Virus record (IMG/VR): IMGVR_UViG_3300046690_000356
Coordinates: 1-44,464 of that record
Direction: 5' to 3' (one strand)
From: a virus
DNA: 44,464 nt
A program made the position numbers and the translations under genes. The notes beneath the pieces were generated by a model. That model saw only the letters and a list, made by a program, of their open reading frames with translations, was not told where the DNA came from and ran no database searches. Of this stretch, positions 31,258 through 42,709 are shown piece after piece. The stretch's first letter is position 1. Each line of letters begins with the position of its first letter.

Positions 31258-31901
31258 CCGGCCGCCAATCGCGGCATAGGCCGCGCGGCGGCATCGGCCG
31301 GCGTCATCCGCGTGAAACTCAGGATCGGGGTATCGGCGCCGCCGAGCATCACGCGCTTGGCCTTCTCGCTGTCACCGATCAGCACCGGCGGCTGGCTCTT
31401 CTGCCCCATCCGGTTGTTTTGCGCCTCGGCGATGCCAATCAACACGGGCAGGTATTCGGGCGACTCGCTGCGCATCCGGTAGCCGCGGTAGCGGTTCTCG
31501 AATTCCTTGCCGACGAACGGCCATTCCTTTTCGCCTTTGCCGCCCACCAGCGCCCAGCCGCCCATATCGACGATCACGCGGTGAATCAGCGGGTCATCGA
31601 ACACGACGCTGTTGTACGTGCCGCACGAGCGCACTGCGCGATCGACCTTGGCCCACGCCACAAGCGCGGCGTCCTGCGTCGAGCCTTGGAGCATCTTCAC
31701 GATGTCCGCCGGGAACGGCAGGTACTGGCCGGAATCCGGATTGACGCTGTGGCGACCGACGGCATCGCTTACGGCGTCGAATTCGTATGGCTTCAGCGCG
31801 TTCCACCACACGGCAGCGGAAAAGTCAGAGAAGTCGCGCCGGTAGAAAGCGTGGACATCGGCGATGAGCGCAACGAAGGCGCTGTGATCGTTCGGGGTCA
31901 T
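31254..31901 (-). CDS. DUF6475-like phage protein, possible helicase loader
   Basis: 215 residues: FVALIADVHAFYRRDFSDFS, AAVWWNALKPYEFDAVSDAV, SGQYLPFPADIVKMLQG, AWAKVDRAVRSCGTYNSVVF, MGGWALVGGKGEKEWPFVGK. The order (G-x-Y-L-P-x-P-A-D-I-V-K, W-x-K-V) is that of a widespread uncharacterised phage family I know as DUF6475. Being placed directly after the origin-binding protein gene, it may play the part of lambda P. That role is inferred from position only. Confidence 0.68.
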   Translation of the reverse strand: MTPNDHSAFVALIADVHAFYRRDFSDFSAAVWWNALKPYEFDAVSDAVGRHSVNPDSGQYLPFPADIVKMLQGSTQDAALVAWAKVDRAVRSCGTYNSVVFDDPLIHRVIVDMGGWALVGGKGEKEWPFVGKEFENRYRGYRMRSESPEYLPVLIGIAEAQNNRMGQKSQPPVLIGDSEKAKRVMLGGADTPILSFTRMTPADAAARPMPRLAAG

Positions 31902-32758
31902 CAGGCTGCTCCTTGCTGTGCTTGGAACTGCGCGGCCACGCGTTGAGCGACGGCCCGGTTATTGGCTTCGAGTGCCTCCTGCTTGTTCAGCCCGGCGCCG
32001 GCCGGCGCACCGCCAGCGGCACCGCCCGAAATCCACTTGGCCTTGAATCCAGCCCAGTTCGATTCCACGGCGTGCTTCACAGCCTGTGCGGCCGTCATGC
32101 CGCATGCGGCGGCCTCTTCTTTGACGGATTCCCAGGCGGTCTGCGTCAGCGGTAGGCGCTTGGCCTTGCGCAGCGTCAGCCAGTCACGAGCATGCTTGCG
32201 CTCGACGCCTTCAGCGACCAATGCAGATGCGGTCAGGGGCTTGCCTTCATCGCGATCACCGTCCGATTGCTGGGCGGTCGACGAAGAATCAGCAGCGCGC
32301 TTGCGCGTCTGCGTCGTTTTTTCGCCTTTGTCTTTCTCTTCTTCTTTATCTTCTTCTGTATCTGTATCTAGGCCGTTACCGGAACGTTGCGGTAACGTTT
32401 CATTGCCGTTACCAGAACGTTTTGTCTTTTCGCGGTGTGCGCGCACGCGGTCGGTGCTCGAATCGGAACGCATCTGGCGCTTTTCCCATGCGAGCGGCTG
32501 CCAGCTGTCATCGATCAGGCCCACGGCCGCAAGGCGTTTCTTCACCTCGCCAATCACCGCGTAATCGACCCACAGACGCTGCGCGACGATGCGGTTGAGC
32601 AACTCGGGCGCGCATTGGTTGTCGAGCGTGCCGTCGCCCTTGAGAGCCAGCACGCCGATGAAATGACGCTGGTCTTCAAACGCCAGCGTGATCATCTTCG
32701 GGTCGTTCAGGAAGTCCGTGTACATGCGGAACCACGGCATTTTCGGGTTCGTGCTCAC
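31901..32758 (-). CDS. Replication initiation protein, O-like
   Basis: 285 residues, GTG start (GTGA overlap). N-terminal part PWFRMYTDFLNDPKMITLAF, EDQRHFIGVLALKGDG is typical of phage replication proteins with a winged-helix domain; a basic/charged linker (DTDTEEDKEEEKDKGEKTTQ) separates a C-terminal domain (KHARDWLTLRKAKRLPLTQT, AAQAVKHAVESNWAGFKAKW) likely contacting the loader or helicase. The linker coincides with repeats at the DNA level that look like an origin, as in lambda O. The next gene may encode the loader. Confidence 0.8.
   Translation of the reverse strand: MSTNPKMPWFRMYTDFLNDPKMITLAFEDQRHFIGVLALKGDGTLDNQCAPELLNRIVAQRLWVDYAVIGEVKKRLAAVGLIDDSWQPLAWEKRQMRSDSSTDRVRAHREKTKRSGNGNETLPQRSGNGLDTDTEEDKEEEKDKGEKTTQTRKRAADSSSTAQQSDGDRDEGKPLTASALVAEGVERKHARDWLTLRKAKRLPLTQTAWESVKEEAAACGMTAAQAVKHAVESNWAGFKAKWISGGAAGGAPAGAGLNKQEALEANNRAVAQRVAAQFQAQQGAA
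32322..32421. other. Candidate replication origin inside the replication gene
   Basis: Two copies of GCCGTTACCrGAACGTT lie at 32372-32388 and 32405-32421, 33 bases apart (about three helical turns), with an inverted GGTAACG at 32391-32397 between them. Immediately beside them is a strongly strand-biased pyrimidine/AT tract (32322-32370, mostly C/T on the plus strand). Iterons plus a strand-biased easily melted tract inside the initiator gene is the layout of lambda ori. Confidence 0.6.
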
Positions 32759-33033
32759 GCCGTCACCTCAGTCGGCAGACCAACGGTGTCGGCGAACAGG
32801 CCGGTTTCGAGGCATTTGCGCGAGCCACGAACCACGAGCGCGCCCTGCTCAATCAATTCCGGAACGCGACCACACACGCTCCCAAGGCGTATGTTCGTGC
32901 GGTCCGAGATCTCTTGACGCGTCAAAGTCACGTCCCCGCCGTAGAACAGGTCGAGAATGATCTCGTGTTGCGTGCGCTTCTTCGCGCAGGTGACCGAGTC
33001 ATAGCCAGCGAGTTGCGTGTGTGTGGCGCGCAT
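32755..33033 (-). CDS. Winged-helix early regulator
   Basis: 92 residues. KKRTQHEIILDLFYGGDVTL, TRQEISDRTNIRLGSVCGRV, PELIEQGALVVRGSRKC is a clear winged helix-turn-helix. The L-T-R-Q-E-I-S-x-R-T-x-I-x-x-x-x-V-x-x-R-V-x-x-L pattern fits recognition-helix and wing. It precedes the replication gene (GTGA overlap) and may control it or help at the origin. Overlaps the YdaT-like stop by one base. Confidence 0.75.
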   Translation of the reverse strand: MRATHTQLAGYDSVTCAKKRTQHEIILDLFYGGDVTLTRQEISDRTNIRLGSVCGRVPELIEQGALVVRGSRKCLETGLFADTVGLPTEVTA

Positions 33034-33632
33034 CAGGACACCTTCCGGAGTTGTTCGGGTTGGACCGATTCACCGGTCGTGGAAAGCGCCGACTCGACGA
33101 CGCGCAGCGAGCGCTGCTTGATGCGGATGTCTTCGACCAGGCTGCTATGGAGGCGCGGCAGCTCGCCCGGATCTACGCCGTCGAGCAGATCGGCTGCGTC
33201 GGCCTCGGTGCGGTGATTGGCGCGCATGATCGTCTGCACGAGCTCGTGCGCATTGAGTCGTGCCTCGGAGTCGTGATGGCGCGCACGCGCAACGCAATCG
33301 ATCTGGGCAAAGATCTCGTTCAGCAGATCGACGCGGCGCTCGATCGGCAGCGCGGCGAGAATTGAGTTCTCGAAGTTCGCCGGCATCAGGTTGTTGTCTT
33401 TCGACTCGTCGTCGAGCCAGCGCCAGATGCGGTCAGCGTGGTTCTTCTGCGTCGTGTAGACGTCGCCATGCTTGTCGAACACGATCACGCCAGACAGGTG
33501 GCCGCCGATACGCTCGTGCGCCGCGACGATCTCCGCTGCCGCCGTCTCGCGGCTCCAGCCATGGGCCTTGCGCCACGCAGCGATGTGGTCGCGGATGATT
33601 CCGATTCGGGACTTGTGCGAACTGTCTCGCAT
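33033..33632 (-). CDS. YdaT-like regulator (CII-type position)
   Basis: 199 residues. IIRDHIAAWRKAHGWSRETA, AAEIVAAHERIGG, HADRIWRWLDDES and MPANFENSILAALPIERRVD match the YdaT family, first named for a toxic Rac prophage product and later proposed to act like CII in a YdaS/YdaT switch. N-terminal DNA-binding domain, C-terminal helical part. It lies downstream of a YdaS/Cro-like gene, as in those prophages, so a role in lysis-lysogeny choice is inferred. Confidence 0.75.
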   Translation of the reverse strand: MRDSSHKSRIGIIRDHIAAWRKAHGWSRETAAAEIVAAHERIGGHLSGVIVFDKHGDVYTTQKNHADRIWRWLDDESKDNNLMPANFENSILAALPIERRVDLLNEIFAQIDCVARARHHDSEARLNAHELVQTIMRANHRTEADAADLLDGVDPGELPRLHSSLVEDIRIKQRSLRVVESALSTTGESVQPEQLRKVS

Positions 33633-33938: not shown

Positions 33939-34151
33939 TCAAGCTGCCCTGGAGAAAGCGTTGCCGCCACCGGCGTTGAACAGATCGGGGCGCCGCAGCC
34001 GGACGCCGGCGGGGATGCCGCGAACGGTCCAGTTGTGGACGCGCTGGGTTCCACCTCTCTTGAAACCGAGAAGCTTCGCGACGCTCGCGGGGCCGCCGAG
34101 CCGCTTGATCAGAGCCCGGTCGGATTCAACGGAGAAAGTGGGTGTGTTCAT
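33939..34151 (-). CDS. YdaS/Cro-like repressor
   Basis: 70 residues. DRALIKRLGGPASVAKLLGF, KRGGTQRVHNWTVRGIPAGV is a helix-turn-helix of the Cro/YdaS kind (G-G-x-x-x-V-A-x-L-L-G ... V-x-N-W-x-x-R-G-I-P). It is divergent from the repressor gene and first in the early minus-strand operon, the classical cro place. The likely promoter -10 ends only eight bases before the ATG and no Shine-Dalgarno is visible, so the message may be nearly leaderless. Confidence 0.85.
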   Translation of the reverse strand: MNTPTFSVESDRALIKRLGGPASVAKLLGFKRGGTQRVHNWTVRGIPAGVRLRRPDLFNAGGGNAFSRAA

Positions 34152-34244
34152 GAGACATCATTAAACACCATGTTTAGTTTTGCCGCAAGCAATTTAAACG
34201 TGGCGTTGAACAACAAAACGTTTACTTCGGCGACCATTGCGCGC
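34152..34244. promoter_or_regulatory. OR-like operator/promoter region between cro and cI
   Basis: Two sites of the form TAAAC-N5-GTTNA: TAAACACCATGTTTA at 34162-34176 and TAAACGTGGCGTTGA at 34195-34209, 33 bases apart. On the minus strand TTGCGG-17-TTTAAT places the cro promoter -10 (34165-34160) on the first site. AT-rich sequence (ACAAAACGTTTACTT) follows towards cI. The same site type recurs at 37139-37177. Confidence 0.78.
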
Positions 34245-35240
34245 ATGCACGAGACAATGGAACGCTTATACGAAGCCGCGCACCTCCTCCACAAGATCGA
34301 GGGGCCGGCACAACTCGCCAAATTTCTGAATATTTCGGAGCAGCTGGTCAACAACTGGCAGCGCCGAGGCATCTCCAAGGGCGGGATGATCGACGCCCAG
34401 ACGAAGATCGGATGCAGCGCAACGTGGCTCGAAACCGGCGTGCCGCCGATGATGGCCGCCAATGCGCACGCTCACCGCAAGCACGAGCCGGCCGATTCCG
34501 AACCGCCGAAAAGCGACCGAAAGAAAGGCGTAATCAAGTCGCAACCCAGCGGCGACGCCAATACACTAAACGCTGAAGAAACACCTGCGCACCGACTACG
34601 CCGGGCTTTGGGCGATAAGGAAGTGTCGCCGACTGAGCTGGCGTCCGTCGCGGGCGTGGGCGTCGAGACAGCCGCATTATGGCTGGGCGGGATTGGTCCA
34701 GATTTGTCGTTGGTTCAGGCCGTCGCTATACAAAACACATATGGCGTGAATTCGGTTTGGCTGCTCAAGGGCAAGGGAGAGCCCGGGGTAGCCATACGGT
34801 ACGCTGATGCGTTCGACCCGATCACGGATCTTAAATGGCGCGGGGTGCCGGTTGTGGGGTTTGCTCAGTTGGGCGATAACGGACATTTTGTCGACATCGA
34901 ATTTCCGGTTGGTTACGGAGACGGATTCGTTGCGGCGCCGACCGAGGACAAGGACGCGTATGCACTCCGCTGCGTCGGCGACTCGATGCGCCCCAGAATC
35001 AAAGACAGGGAATTTGTCGTTGTCGAGCCGAACCACAAAGTCGAGCCGGGCGATGAAGTCTTGGTCAAGGCGAAAGACGGCCGTGTCATGGTTAAGGAGT
35101 TCCTATACGAGCGCGCGGGCCGCGTGCACCTGAGCTCGGTCAATGAATCGCATCCGCAAATCGCGATCGACAAAGACAATATCGAGAAAATGCACTACGT
35201 GGGATGGATTGCTAAGCCTTCGGCATGGCGACCCGGCTGA
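34245..35240 (+). CDS. cI: Prophage repressor with two HTH domains and S24 peptidase-like domain
   Basis: 331 residues from ATG 34245 (ATG 34257 is an alternative; neither has a strong ribosome site). HTH 1 at about 20-65: GPAQLAKFLNISEQLVNNWQ, RRG, then CSATWLETG. HTH 2 at about 114-177: TELASVAGVGVETAALWLGG, then YGVNSVWLLKGKG. Both show the W-L-x-x-G ending of phage CI-type domains, suggesting duplication. C-terminal S24: VGDSMRPRI (Ser247) and DGRVMVKEF (Lys284), 37 apart as in LexA. At the place of the usual Ala-Gly cleavage site the sequence reads FAQLGDNG, so Leu-Gly. It should hold both operator regions in the lysogen. Confidence 0.88.
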   Translation: MHETMERLYEAAHLLHKIEGPAQLAKFLNISEQLVNNWQRRGISKGGMIDAQTKIGCSATWLETGVPPMMAANAHAHRKHEPADSEPPKSDRKKGVIKSQPSGDANTLNAEETPAHRLRRALGDKEVSPTELASVAGVGVETAALWLGGIGPDLSLVQAVAIQNTYGVNSVWLLKGKGEPGVAIRYADAFDPITDLKWRGVPVVGFAQLGDNGHFVDIEFPVGYGDGFVAAPTEDKDAYALRCVGDSMRPRIKDREFVVVEPNHKVEPGDEVLVKAKDGRVMVKEFLYERAGRVHLSSVNESHPQIAIDKDNIEKMHYVGWIAKPSAWRPG

Positions 35241-35285
35241 TTCGAGCACTTCGGCCTTTGACCAAAAGAAAAAACGGGGGCGGTA

Positions 35286-35759
35286 ATGTTGTTCATTGGG
35301 GTTTGGCTCATCTGCATGATCATCACGGCATTGATCGCGAACTCAAAGAATCGAAGCCCAATTGCTTGGGCAATCTTGGCCATCCCGCTTGGGCTCTTCG
35401 CGACAGTTGTTGTGGCATGCAGTACCAAATTGCCAGATGCCGGCAGTCCAGCGTCCATCGCCGGCGATACCACCAATCCGGTAAAGACGTGTCCGCGATG
35501 CGCAGAAACGGTGAAGGCGGCCGCCCAAGTTTGCCGGTTTTGCCAGCATGAATTTACGAGCGTCGGGTCAACTCCGAGGGCGACGGACGCCGCTCAGCTA
35601 CCGTGGACTCTCGAAGAAGATTGGGGCGATGGATATGGCGTCTACAGTTACAGAGGCCAGCGATTGGCCTACAACAAAAGCGGTGTCAAGTGGCATGCGA
35701 GCACCTTCAATAGCCCAGCGGTCGCCATTGCATCGATCGACTCAGGTCTGGGTAACTGA
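35286..35759 (+). CDS. Membrane protein with zinc ribbon, lysogenic operon gene 1
   Basis: 157 residues, ATG after GGGGGCGGTA. Two transmembrane segments (LFIGVWLICMIITALIA and PIAWAILAIPLGLFATVVVA) are followed by a short zinc ribbon (CPRCAETVKAAAQVCRFCQH) and a small C-terminal domain (WGDGYGVYSYRGQRLAYNKS). It lies 45 bases downstream of cI on the same strand with no terminator between, so it should be expressed in the lysogen. Function unknown; envelope location plus repressor-linked expression suits superinfection exclusion. Confidence 0.72.
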   Translation: MLFIGVWLICMIITALIANSKNRSPIAWAILAIPLGLFATVVVACSTKLPDAGSPASIAGDTTNPVKTCPRCAETVKAAAQVCRFCQHEFTSVGSTPRATDAAQLPWTLEEDWGDGYGVYSYRGQRLAYNKSGVKWHASTFNSPAVAIASIDSGLGN

Positions 35760-35888
35760 GACTTGGGCGAAGGCGTGAGTCGCAGAGCGCCGCCTCGAAA
35801 ACGAACATCCGCCAAATTCTGCTAAAGCTTTTGCCGAAATTGCCGATAGCCAACTAGCGGTTGTTCAACTGAAATTTGCCCCCACGTA

Positions 35889-36200
35889 ATGGACAAGAAC
35901 GAATTCCAATTAGAATCGGCCAAGGTCGAGGCCGTCACCCATCGCTGGGCGATCGCCGGAGACGCGATCAAAGTGGCCCTCACGGTGGCAGGCAGCATTA
36001 TTGCTGTGTACCTTATTATGAAAGGCCTTCCGCAGATTTTTGCAGGTAAGAATGCTAACGACATTGGTGCGATTGCGAAGGTTTTCGAGGCCATGCATTT
36101 TGGGAGCATTGCGGGGTGGGCCGGGAGCGCGGTCATGACCGGCGCTTGGTCACTTGAAAAGTCTAGGCGGAAGCGAGCAGAGAGAAAGCTGGCAAGCTGA
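35889..36200 (+). CDS. Small membrane protein, lysogenic operon gene 2
   Basis: 103 residues with two hydrophobic segments (IKVALTVAGSIIAVYLIMKG and FGSIAGWAGSAVMTGAWSL) and a basic tail (EKSRRKRAERKLAS). Ribosome site is weak. It is 129 bases after the first membrane gene and 38 before the third. The region is more AT-rich than the structural genes, as often seen with recently acquired accessory genes. No family recognised. Confidence 0.65.
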   Translation: MDKNEFQLESAKVEAVTHRWAIAGDAIKVALTVAGSIIAVYLIMKGLPQIFAGKNANDIGAIAKVFEAMHFGSIAGWAGSAVMTGAWSLEKSRRKRAERKLAS

Positions 36201-36238
36201 TCTATAATCAGGTAAATCGTTGTTTTTTGGAGAAAAAG

Positions 36239-36820
36239 ATGGAACTCGTCCTTTCTGGAATAGGTATCCTCTTCCTCCTTTTTGCTTGGAACTGCGCGTT
36301 TCTTCCTGCCCTACGGGGCAGGTGCGTCGACAGATTGCAGGACTTGCAAGAAGAGAATGCTCGTTTTTTCGCGAAAGCGTCGACGGAAGATCGTGCGCGA
36401 GTACGGCGATCGCTAGATAGATTGCTGTCCGCCCAGATCGACAATATCGACCGCGTCTCGCTTGTAGGCTACCTATTATTTTCGCGTTGGCATCGGTCCC
36501 GGCCGCAGTCAGCCACAGCGTTTGACAAAGAAGTTGATGATCGCTTTTCGTCGAATGACGAAAGCGTCAACGAGTTCTCCGAACACATAAGAATGCAGTC
36601 AGCCACGGCCCTCTTCTTGTTCATGGGCAGGAAATATTCTTGGATGTGGGCGGCGGCGGTCTTTGTGGTCCCCTTCCTGCTGATGCATCTTGGCTACCGC
36701 GCTTTTTTACATGCGGCCGATGCCGTCGCCCGGAAGGTACTCCAAGCAACTGGCGCGGAAACCAAACCCGAGGGTACGAAACGCATAATGGAAGACTCTA
36801 TTCTTGCGATGTGCCACTAG
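36239..36820 (+). CDS. Membrane protein, lysogenic operon gene 3
   Basis: 193 residues from ATG 36239 (GGAG six bases before; a TTG at 36227 is rejected because it contains the ribosome site). N-terminal transmembrane segment (LVLSGIGILFLLFAWNCAFL), a charged cytoplasmic-like middle (DRLQDLQEENARFFAKASTE) and a second segment (SWMWAAAVFVVPFLLMHLGY). TATAAT at 36203-36208 could be an extra promoter -10. Terminated by a strong hairpin at 36841-36869. Function unknown. Confidence 0.68.
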   Translation: MELVLSGIGILFLLFAWNCAFLPALRGRCVDRLQDLQEENARFFAKASTEDRARVRRSLDRLLSAQIDNIDRVSLVGYLLFSRWHRSRPQSATAFDKEVDDRFSSNDESVNEFSEHIRMQSATALFLFMGRKYSWMWAAAVFVVPFLLMHLGYRAFLHAADAVARKVLQATGAETKPEGTKRIMEDSILAMCH

Positions 36821-36840
36821 CGCAACGCACGCAAACATCA

Positions 36841-36869
36841 AGGCCCCGCTCAAGCGGGGCTTTTTTTTT
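36841..36869 (+). terminator. Intrinsic terminator of the lysogenic operon
   Basis: GCCCCGCT pairs with AGCGGGGC around a two-base centre and is followed by nine T. It marks the end of the cI operon. Confidence 0.88.
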
Positions 36870-37106
36870 GCCCACAACAGACGCGAAATCTTGTTCTGCA
36901 ACGCCTCTTCCATCGGAACGCACCCGCCGTGCTAACGCCGCGGTGTCGCGGCGCGCCAGCAAACTGACGGTGCGAACAGCTCGCCCATCGACGTCCGCTT
37001 GTCCGCGCCACCCGGCCTACAGCCCCGCATGGTCAATCCCGCACCTCCTAGCCGCGCGAACAATCGAAACGGCGCAGCAATTGTGAGAAGGATCTCTAGC
37101 CAGTTT
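36870..37106. other. Non-coding stretch before the second early promoter
   Basis: About 240 bases in which I see no credible gene on either strand; short minus-strand frames have no ribosome site or protein-like composition. GC-rich (CGCCGCGGTGTCGCGGCG) in its middle. It could hold a small RNA, but nothing definite is visible. Confidence 0.5.
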
Positions 37107-37179
37107 TTGACATGCACATGCTGTCGCACCCATAAAACTAAACATAAAGTTTGACTGAAATATAAACATAGTGTTTAAT
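37107..37179 (+). promoter_or_regulatory. OL-like operators and promoter of the + strand early operon
   Basis: TTGACT (37151-37156), 17 bases, TTTAAT (37174-37179) make a good sigma70 promoter. TAAACATAAAGTTTG (37139-37153) covers the -35 and TAAACATAGTGTTTA (37163-37177) covers the spacer and -10. Both follow TAAAC-N5-GTTTR, as in the cI-cro gap. A further TTGACA at 37107-37112 lies upstream. This should be the CI/Cro-repressed left promoter. Confidence 0.82.
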
Positions 37180-37218
37180 TCGTCTCATGCACTCACCGAC
37201 CTACCGGGAGACTTTGAG

Positions 37219-37428
37219 ATGAGCACCCTGCCTGTATCCGCGCCGCGATTCACCGAAGCAACGCGGGCCGCGAACGAGGTCGATTACTTCGACAACGGCG
37301 GCATGACCGACGCGGAGCTTGAGCAGTACGCGAGCCGCACGACGAAGCGCCCGCTGCTCTGTTTCGCGATCCTCGCCGCTATGCCTTTCATCGCTGAAGG
37401 CGTCTGCCGTTTGTTGGGTGCGTGGTAA
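37219..37428 (+). CDS. Small membrane-associated early protein (69 aa)
   Basis: ATG at 37219 after GGGAGACTTTGAG; an in-frame start at 37171 would lie inside the promoter. A soluble N-terminal part (YFDNGGMTDAELEQYASRTT) precedes a C-terminal hydrophobic helix (PLLCFAILAAMPFIAEGVCR). First gene after the OL-like promoter. Unknown function. TAATG overlap with the next gene. Confidence 0.68.
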   Translation: MSTLPVSAPRFTEATRAANEVDYFDNGGMTDAELEQYASRTTKRPLLCFAILAAMPFIAEGVCRLLGAW

Positions 37429-37817: not shown

Positions 37818-38522
37818 ATGAACGCAACCACCGAAAGCGAGCAACTCTCGATCGAAGGCATCGCGGCCGCTGAATCGGAACAAACCGAAGCCCCGCACAT
37901 GATCGCGCGCATCAATGCGCTGGCCGTAAAGATCGCGTTTCCGTTCGCCGCGAAAGACGACATCCGTTTCTATCTCAATGGGCTGAATATCCGCCCGCTT
38001 GAGGACGGCTCGGTGATGATCGTCGCGACCGACGGCCACCGCTATCTGGTCGTGCGCGATCAGAAGGGCTATGCCGAGAAAGAGGTGATCGTGTCGGTGA
38101 AGAAGGATAGCCTCAAGTCTGCCAACAGCAAAAATACCTTCGACGTTATGTCGAATGGCTCGGCGTTTGTGAATGACGAGCACGGCATGCCGCTGTTCGT
38201 TCAGCCGGGTAGCTCGTTAGTCGAAGGCGAATTTCCGCGCATTGAGAGCGTTGTCTCGACTATCGGTTACAAGGAAGGCATTTCCGGCGCAATCAACCCT
38301 TCGTATCTGAAAGACGCGCTCGCACTCGGCCAGCACTTCAACAGCATCCGGTTCTTCACGAAAGACCAGGACGGCGCGCTCGTATTCGTCGTCGGCGGCA
38401 TGGGCGATCTTGAAGTGTTCGGCGGAATCATGAAGCTGCGCGAGAGCTTCGAGCAGTTGCCTGCGTGGTTCCCGAAGCCCGTGCCGTTCAAGCTGGCCGA
38501 ATCGGTCGGGGCGCCGGAATGA
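37818..38522 (+). CDS. Sliding-clamp (DnaN)-like phage protein
   Basis: 234 residues from ATG 37818. The stretch DIRFYLNGLNIRPLEDGSVM, IVATDGHRYLVVRDQKGY resembles a beta-clamp domain, including the A-T-D-G-H-R motif at the end of the strand pair; a further repeat-like part is GEFPRIESVVSTIGY, resembling the clamp's (E/D)(Y/F)P hinge. The bacterial clamp has three such domains in about 366 residues; this protein is long enough for two. It may serve as a phage clamp or bind host polymerase partners. ATGA overlap with the next gene. Confidence 0.72.
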   Translation: MNATTESEQLSIEGIAAAESEQTEAPHMIARINALAVKIAFPFAAKDDIRFYLNGLNIRPLEDGSVMIVATDGHRYLVVRDQKGYAEKEVIVSVKKDSLKSANSKNTFDVMSNGSAFVNDEHGMPLFVQPGSSLVEGEFPRIESVVSTIGYKEGISGAINPSYLKDALALGQHFNSIRFFTKDQDGALVFVVGGMGDLEVFGGIMKLRESFEQLPAWFPKPVPFKLAESVGAPE

Positions 38523-40471: not shown

Positions 40472-41179
40472 ATGAATCAGACCACTAAAGACGCAGTCAA
40501 CCAGTTCCGGAAGAAGCCGGTTGTTATCGAAGCCGTTCAAATCTCGAAGCGTATGGACCTGACATCCCCCGAATGGTGGGCAGCGGCGGTCCAGTCGAAT
40601 GCCGTCATCGTGCATGGCATGGGCAAGTTCACCCGCGATCAGCCGTGGGTGGAAATCCAGACCCTCGAAGGCACGATGCGCGGCGATGCTGGTGACTGGA
40701 TCATTCGAGGCGTCCAAGGCGAGCTTTACCCTTGCAAGCCGGACATCTTCGACGCCACGTACGAACCAGCCCACATCGCTCCCACTCCCGCCGTGGCGCA
40801 AGCGCCGCTCTATCAGATCCAATTCAAAACGGCCGCAGCAAGTTCGCTCTGGTTTGACGTCCGGCCTGAAGAATGGGAGAGGAAAGACCCGAATGACTAC
40901 GATAAGCGAATCGTCTACGCCGCACCCGCCGCTCCCACTCCCGCCGTGCAGGCAGAGGAAGTGCAATGGGAAGCCCATCTGGCAGAAGTTGTCGAGCACA
41001 CCATCGACACTCTCACGCGGCAACTCGAACTAATCGCCGAACGTGCTCCCGGCTCGTTCCTAGATAAGGTGCCGGTCGTTCGATCGCTCACCGCGCACAG
41101 GCAACGCCTTGAACGCGCCCTAACCGAGCGCAACGCATCTTTCGCCGCTACTGCTCCATCTACCGGGGAACAGGTATGA
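40472..41179 (+). CDS. PGDYG-like phage protein
   Basis: 235 residues. The N-terminal half NQFRKKPVVIEAVQISKRMD ... GDAGDWIIRGVQGELYPCKP, DIFDATYEP is the well-known phage family with K-P-V-x-(I/V)-E-A-x-Q and G-D-W-I-I-R-G-x-x-G-E-x-Y-P-C-K-P-D-I-F. The C-terminal half (EVQWEAHLAEVVEHTIDTLT) is helical. Function unknown in the family. ATGA overlap with the methyltransferase gene. Confidence 0.8.
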   Translation: MNQTTKDAVNQFRKKPVVIEAVQISKRMDLTSPEWWAAAVQSNAVIVHGMGKFTRDQPWVEIQTLEGTMRGDAGDWIIRGVQGELYPCKPDIFDATYEPAHIAPTPAVAQAPLYQIQFKTAAASSLWFDVRPEEWERKDPNDYDKRIVYAAPAAPTPAVQAEEVQWEAHLAEVVEHTIDTLTRQLELIAERAPGSFLDKVPVVRSLTAHRQRLERALTERNASFAATAPSTGEQV

Positions 41180-41691
41180 GCGACGCACTCAAGACGATCC
41201 TCGATCCGTGCTGCGGTGGCCGCATGTTCTGGTTCGACCGCAACCACCCGAGCGCAGTGTTCGGCGACGCGCGGTCCGAATCGATCGTCGTCACCGACCG
41301 CTCACACGACGACCCAGAAGGCACGCGCACGCTCAACATCGAGCCGGACATCCTCATGGACTTCCGCGACCTTCCGTATCCGGATGGCTCGTTCAAGCTC
41401 GTCGTGTTCGATCCGCCGCATCTGGTGCGCGCCGGCCCGCGTAGCTGGCTCGCTGCGAAGTACGGAAAGCTCGGCGCCGACTGGCGTGAGGACATTCGAA
41501 AAGGCTTTGCCGAGTGCTTCCGCGTGCTCGATCAACACGGCGTGCTGATCTTCAAATGGAACGAGACGCAGATCAAGGTCAACGAGATTCTGGCACTCAC
41601 CGAGCGCGCGCCGCTGTTCGGGCACAAGTCTGGAAAGCGCGCCGACACGCACTGGATCTGCTTTATGAAAACGGAGGCCTCCGCGCGATGA
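41176..41691 (+). CDS. SAM-dependent methyltransferase, small
   Basis: 171 residues. Motif I-like ILDPCCGGRMFWF, catalytic-type motif IV LVVFDPPHLV and a later Rossmann strand (CFRVLDQHGVLIFKWNE). DPPH is close to the (D/N)PP(Y/F) of N6-adenine or N4-cytosine DNA methyltransferases, but the protein has no room for a full target recognition domain. It may protect phage DNA from host restriction or modify another substrate. ATGA overlaps on both sides. Confidence 0.8.
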   Translation: MSDALKTILDPCCGGRMFWFDRNHPSAVFGDARSESIVVTDRSHDDPEGTRTLNIEPDILMDFRDLPYPDGSFKLVVFDPPHLVRAGPRSWLAAKYGKLGADWREDIRKGFAECFRVLDQHGVLIFKWNETQIKVNEILALTERAPLFGHKSGKRADTHWICFMKTEASAR

Positions 41692-42497: not shown

Positions 42498-42709
42498 GAG
42501 ACCTCGGGCTTGTCCAGAAGCTCCATCAGCGTTTCGTACGTGGCATCCGGCATCACTTCGGCGATCGCACCTTCGACGATTTTGTCGTACAGGGCGCGGC
42601 CCTCTGGAGAGAATTCGTCGATTTCTCTGGCATCCAACACGAGATTAAACAGTGCGTTTGCGGCGTCGAGGATGGCTTCGGCTTGCGCCTTGGTAATGGT
42701 CGTTTTCAT
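42491..42709 (-). CDS. Small antisense-oriented protein (72 aa)
   Basis: From ATG 42709: MKTTITKAQAEAILDAANAL, then FNLVLDAREIDEFSPEGRAL and ATYETLMELLDKPE. Balanced composition and amphipathic helices look like a real protein, unlike the + strand frames here. It is the only minus-strand gene in the + strand early block and overlaps the convergent gene's end by seven bases. Ribosome site weak. Unknown function. Confidence 0.6.
   Translation of the reverse strand: MKTTITKAQAEAILDAANALFNLVLDAREIDEFSPEGRALYDKIVEGAIAEVMPDATYETLMELLDKPEVSH

Follow-up and report, generated by a model that had tools for sequence, protein, structure and literature searches.

Predicted operators of a lambda-type OR/OL immunity switch, built on the inverted repeat TAAAC-N5-GTTTA, in a temperate phage and its relatives

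What is the role of the matching 15-bp inverted repeats that lie between a divergent repressor (CI) gene and cro-like gene and recur at an opposite early promoter about 3 kb away? The locus belongs to a 44,464-nt viral sequence (IMG/VR record IMGVR_UViG_3300046690_000356), analysed over its full length and referred to here as the window. We assign a probability of about 0.92 to the reading that five 15-bp sites, three at OR and two at OL, serve as operators in an immunity switch of the lambda type. The original prediction had recognised four of them, and all four sequences sit at the coordinates it gave. The features of the region are as follows.

31901-32758, minus strand: O-like replication initiation protein, in the same operon as the CII-like activator
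33033-33632, minus strand: CII-like activator (phrog_163, 5.4e-18), in the operon predicted to be silenced from OR
33939-34151, minus strand: Cro-like protein, 70 aa, with an HTH in the same family as the first HTH of CI
34160-34165, minus strand: predicted pR -10, TTTAAT, partly formed by the outer arm of OR1; the cro ATG follows 8 nt later
34162-34176, minus strand: OR1, TAAACATGGTGTTTA, perfect arms, exact motif match; arms invariant in the window clade
34183-34188, minus strand: predicted pR -35, TTGCGG, separated from the -10 by 17 bp and located between OR2 and OR1, in their 18-bp gap; its TTGC is conserved in the window clade
34195-34209, minus strand: OR2, TCAACGCCACGTTTA, with its centre 43 nt ahead of the start codon of CI
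34209-34214, plus strand: predicted pRM -35, weak, AACAAC
34210-34224, minus strand: OR3, TAAACGTTTTGTTGT, over the predicted pRM -35 and spacer
34232-34237, plus strand: predicted pRM -10, GACCAT, with 7 nt between it and the CI ATG
34245-35240, plus strand: CI repressor, with a first HTH (residues 3-64), a second HTH (114-175) and an S24 C-terminal domain (198-331)
35286-36820, plus strand: cargo between CI and OL, consisting of three genes, one for a zinc-ribbon protein and two for small proteins that are apparently membrane proteins
36840-36863, plus strand: intrinsic terminator between the CI and cargo genes and pL
37139-37153, plus strand: OL site at the -35 (also labelled OL1), TAAACATAAAGTTTG; the -35 begins within its last bases
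37151-37156, plus strand: pL -35, TTGACT
37163-37177, plus strand: OL site at the -10 (also labelled OL2), TAAACATAGTGTTTA; its last bases lie within the -10
37174-37179, plus strand: pL -10, TTTAAT, 17 bp from the -35
37219-37428, plus strand: first substantial ORF of the operon predicted to be silenced from OL, judged by position

Read in the cro direction, OR consists of OR3 abutting OR2, an 18-bp gap, OR1, and AT-GATGTCTC-ATG, ending in the cro start codon. OR had been described with two operators and contains three, the overlooked OR3 bringing the set to five; its inner arm departs from the consensus, reading ACAAC on the plus strand. The sites are not uniformly spaced, with start-to-start distances of 33 bp (OR2-OR1), 15 bp (OR3-OR2) and 24 bp (OL pair).

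The motif TAAAC-N5-GTTNA, originally ascribed to all four sites, matches exactly at 34162, 34195 and 37163 (five strand hits in the whole window), far above the chance level in shuffled sequence (mean 0.07, maximum 2); the site at 37139 is one base off, ending in G. With two mismatches permitted, the 55 hits lie at background (44 expected), so the loose motif by itself is insufficient to identify operators and independent evidence is needed. A scoring matrix trained on 470 sites, all from outside the window clade, assigns the window's five sites 26.2, 25.9, 17.9, 17.0 and 15.4 bits, placing all five at or above 15 bits, OR3 lowest. Exact matches fall only at OR and OL sites, but the matrix adds a sixth site within a gene (42646-42660, TAAACAGTGCGTTTG, 18.5 bits; next best in the window, 5.4 bits). 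This site falls close to the integrase, within a coding frame on the minus strand, and nothing comparable appears in those records of the window clade that were scanned, which makes it probably a chance match. In the 20 related phage records scanned, the sites are essentially confined to OR and OL.

In lambda, cI and cro are divergent, three operators lie at OR and, past the genes adjoining cI, a second operator cluster occupies the opposite early promoter; OR2 is centred ~42 nt upstream of the cI start, cI is leaderless, and the repressor combines an HTH with an S24 domain. The window shares the divergent repressor/cro pair with operators in between, three OR operators that by sequence overlap pR and pRM, a matching cluster at the distant opposite early promoter (OL/pL), the placement of OR2, a CI mRNA that is probably leaderless, and an HTH + S24 repressor. 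It differs from lambda in operator sequence and length (15 bp, TAAAC-N5-GTTTA), in operator arms that themselves form the predicted -35 and -10, in a cro that also appears leaderless, in a CI with two predicted HTH domains and L-G at the cleavage position, and in having two OL sites instead of three.

From the observed positions, conservation and layout of the sites and their association with repressor and Cro, we infer that both proteins bind them. The inverted repeat TAAAC-N5-GTTTA would be recognised both by Cro and by CI, the latter via its first HTH. During lysogeny, CI bound at OR1 and OR2 would shut down pR (cro, cII, replication), while its binding to the OL pair would shut down pL, which drives an early operon reaching the integrase. 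OR2 at -43 is placed for CI to activate its own weak promoter pRM, and OR3, over pRM, would allow Cro, or excess CI, to shut off CI synthesis, an order of operator occupancy that we also infer. Looping between OL and OR may occur, given their separation of ~3 kb and the S24 C-terminus of CI. The OR/OL reading thus supports the two operons originally predicted to be silenced, the cro/cII/replication operon on the minus strand and the operon running from 37187 on the plus strand. The stretch between CI and OL varies among relatives from 0.6 to 3.4 kb (L186-L264), forming a cargo slot flanked by the operator clusters; the window's cargo genes at 35286-36820 yield no convincing match to a defence system.

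The sites lie over the cro promoter and over the promoter of the opposite early operon, as first proposed, and the predicted operator arms double as promoter parts, GTTTG(AC) forming the -35 and GTTTA(AT) the -10. This overlap explains the odd end bases of the operators. OR2 ends in G in 62/62 loci with 24-bp OR2-OR1 spacing, this G being the G of TTG in the -35. At 33-bp spacing, the -35 has shifted into the gap and OR2 ends in A, the symmetric base, in 7/9 loci. The OR2-OR1 gap measures 9 bp in most relatives (24-bp spacing) versus 18 bp in the window (33-bp spacing). All 8 distinct members of the window clade carry the 33-bp rather than the 24-bp arrangement, positioning OR2 9 bp further from the -35 than in relatives with normal spacing. 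Such loci offer a natural test of operator and promoter constraints acting on the same bases, with G at the -35 overlap and A when freed. Outside the window clade, L064 also has 33-bp spacing, apparently via a 9-bp tandem duplication.

The predicted pRM -10 is poor, with 3/6 matches; a hexamer of the form xAnnAT ending 7 nt before the CI ATG recurs across relatives. In 63/~100 loci, 20 nt separate OR3 from the CI ATG; with the hexamer so close to this ATG, the CI mRNA is probably leaderless. The cro mRNA is probably leaderless as well, because its ATG starts only 7-11 nt after OR1 in most loci. A leaderless CI start would put the centres of OR2 and OR3 at -43 and -28, respectively, much as in lambda. 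A candidate leaderless leader ORF at pL (ATG at 37187; 37187-37222, 11 codons, overlapping the next ATG) was dropped because its ATG is absent in most close relatives.

Within the window clade, the arms vary less than the spacers: pooling the five sites over the 8 clade members, 1/50 arm columns vary versus 12/25 spacer columns (Fisher p = 2e-6). The same sites and layout are present in >100 other phages, mostly of Betaproteobacteria. The OL-pair pattern TAAACN5GTTTGAC-gap-TAAACN5GTTTA occurs in at least 119 viral contig stretches and 30 bacterial genome stretches, the bacterial carriers belonging chiefly to Burkholderiales and Nitrosomonadales, alongside a small number of others, e.g., Acinetobacter and Rudaea. 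Among the matches listed, 147 distinct contexts include 125 with sites exactly 24 bp apart and 136 ending in TTTAAT. A complementary sampling started from CI N-terminal domains instead of the motif and gave 73 distinct loci, 72 of which carry TAAAC-N5-GTTTA just upstream of CI. One strict site lies 0.6-3.4 kb downstream of CI in 60 of the 62 loci with at least 3 kb of downstream sequence, and none of the repressor-first loci has a strict site further upstream of CI; OR and OL thus remain paired across 0.6-3.4 kb of intervening sequence. This search used a fixed recognition-helix pattern with seeds from motif-selected loci and, because part of the helix was fixed, speaks for relatives that retain it and is silent on those with a changed helix.

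The AlphaFold model of CI comprises two five-helix HTH domains and the S24 domain, with LexA and lambda repressor as its best fold matches. The profile phrog_8008, of the Cro family, also hits the first HTH of CI, and a recognition helix of the form Q-x-V-x-N-W-x-x-R-G is common to CI and Cro (109 CI and 94 Cro sequences). In three loci (L003, L011 and L012), the C-terminal part of CI is related and the first HTH is different, and no such site occurs in 10-13 kb; the operator sites are retained with repressors that lack the second HTH and with some in which no S24 domain was detected. Both observations point to the first HTH of CI as the likely reader of the operators. For the second HTH, the AlphaFold model and alignment were used, replacing an iterated profile that drifted onto the first HTH and left its 113/113 count void. 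A sequence search of the PDB returned no relative of either CI HTH, and in Acinetobacter relative L184, which lacks TAAAC sites, no clear alternative operator was found.

LexA and lambda CI are cleaved at A-G. The S24 linker of the window's CI reads PVVGFAQLG, with L-G at the corresponding position; this CI does have the GDSM serine motif and a conserved lysine, K284. Because L-G replaces A-G, SOS induction is uncertain, and that of the CI switch may differ from the LexA/lambda CI type.

Against this background, three other readings of the repeats can be weighed. That they are strong conserved promoter sequence only (TTGAC-17-TTTAAT), devoid of operator function, would fit the -35 and -10 elements inside the repeats and the TTTAAT that ends nearly all pairs. 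This account is extremely improbable: the inner TAAAC arms are not promoter elements and are still invariant, OR3 and the window's OR2 lie off the pR hexamers and still keep their arms, and the sites track one repressor HTH, going missing when that HTH is swapped. It is very improbable, too, that CI binds elsewhere and leaves these sites to Cro, CII or a host regulator. A host factor could bind phage promoters, and Cro shares the recognition helix, but the sites accompany the first HTH of CI in all but one of the repressor-first loci, the pair pattern is restricted to one switch locus in each of the host genomes with a match (16/16), and CII-type sites at both pR and pL would be unexpected.

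Doubt of a narrower kind attaches to OR3, whose divergent inner arm and lowest score among the five sites would suit an OR with two functional operators and a remnant at 34210-34224. We regard this as unlikely, given that the site is identical in 8/8 clade members, abuts OR2 at the same position in most other relatives, and lies as expected for an OR3. The lambda-type switch with three operators at OR and two at OL is therefore the reading we retain.

The closest characterised relative in style is the CP-933P cryptic prophage, in which PaaR2, a short regulator (~15 kDa) of a toxin-antitoxin operon, and the Cro-like YdaS bind overlapping operators at PR, PRM and PL; PR and PL share identical -35/-10 elements, and the repressor gene is leaderless by 5' RACE (PMC8630535). 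The CP-933P operators are 18-bp palindromes with the consensus GTTTAGTAA (PMC8630535), unlike the window's TAAAC-N5-GTTTA sites with their variable spacers. The window's Cro is weakly YdaS-like, scoring 19.3 bits against YdaS (Pfam PF15943), below the cut-off of 30. Among named phages, a search with a 41-bp consensus gave weak matches only. Shewanella phage vB_Sb_QDWS (OK094664) carries a full OR1-3 + OL set with arms and layout as in the window and a CI whose first HTH is 52% identical to the window's, differing in its OR2-OR1 spacing of 24 bp, as in most relatives; we found no published account of its operators.

Overall, the predicted layout is an ordinary lambda-type one, and its operator code is shared unusually widely. 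No published description of the TAAAC-N5-GTTTA code was found in a search that lay mostly outside the subscription literature, and the sole paper matching the operator sequence strings is an unrelated poxvirus study. The code, derived from sequence alone, would serve a large and uncharacterised set of temperate phages. In unannotated prophages, the pair pattern would locate pR, pL, CI, Cro and the CI-OL cargo slot, and the operator code would predict which phages are cross-immune. A bolder conjecture, possible though on balance doubtful, is that >100 diverse temperate phages, mainly of Betaproteobacteria, form one cross-immunity group in which CI and Cro are both made from leaderless messages and the repressor of one branch has a second HTH recognising something other than these operators. 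If true, operator specificity would be uniform across this group, unlike in lambdoid phages, whose operator specificities have diversified. The presence of one switch per host genome is too weak an argument for cross-immunity because the prevalence of the switch in host genomes is only ~5% (7/148).

Elsewhere in the window, Rfam identifies positions 1-61 as the 3' portion of a tRNA gene, with the integrase at the opposite end, as expected for a prophage inserted at a tRNA. Within the pL operon, the early protein encoded at 37818-38522 is similar to the DNA polymerase III sliding clamp (central domain) and belongs to a family filed as RusA-like resolvase in PHROGs, and 41176-41691 is a type II/orphan methyltransferase-like gene.
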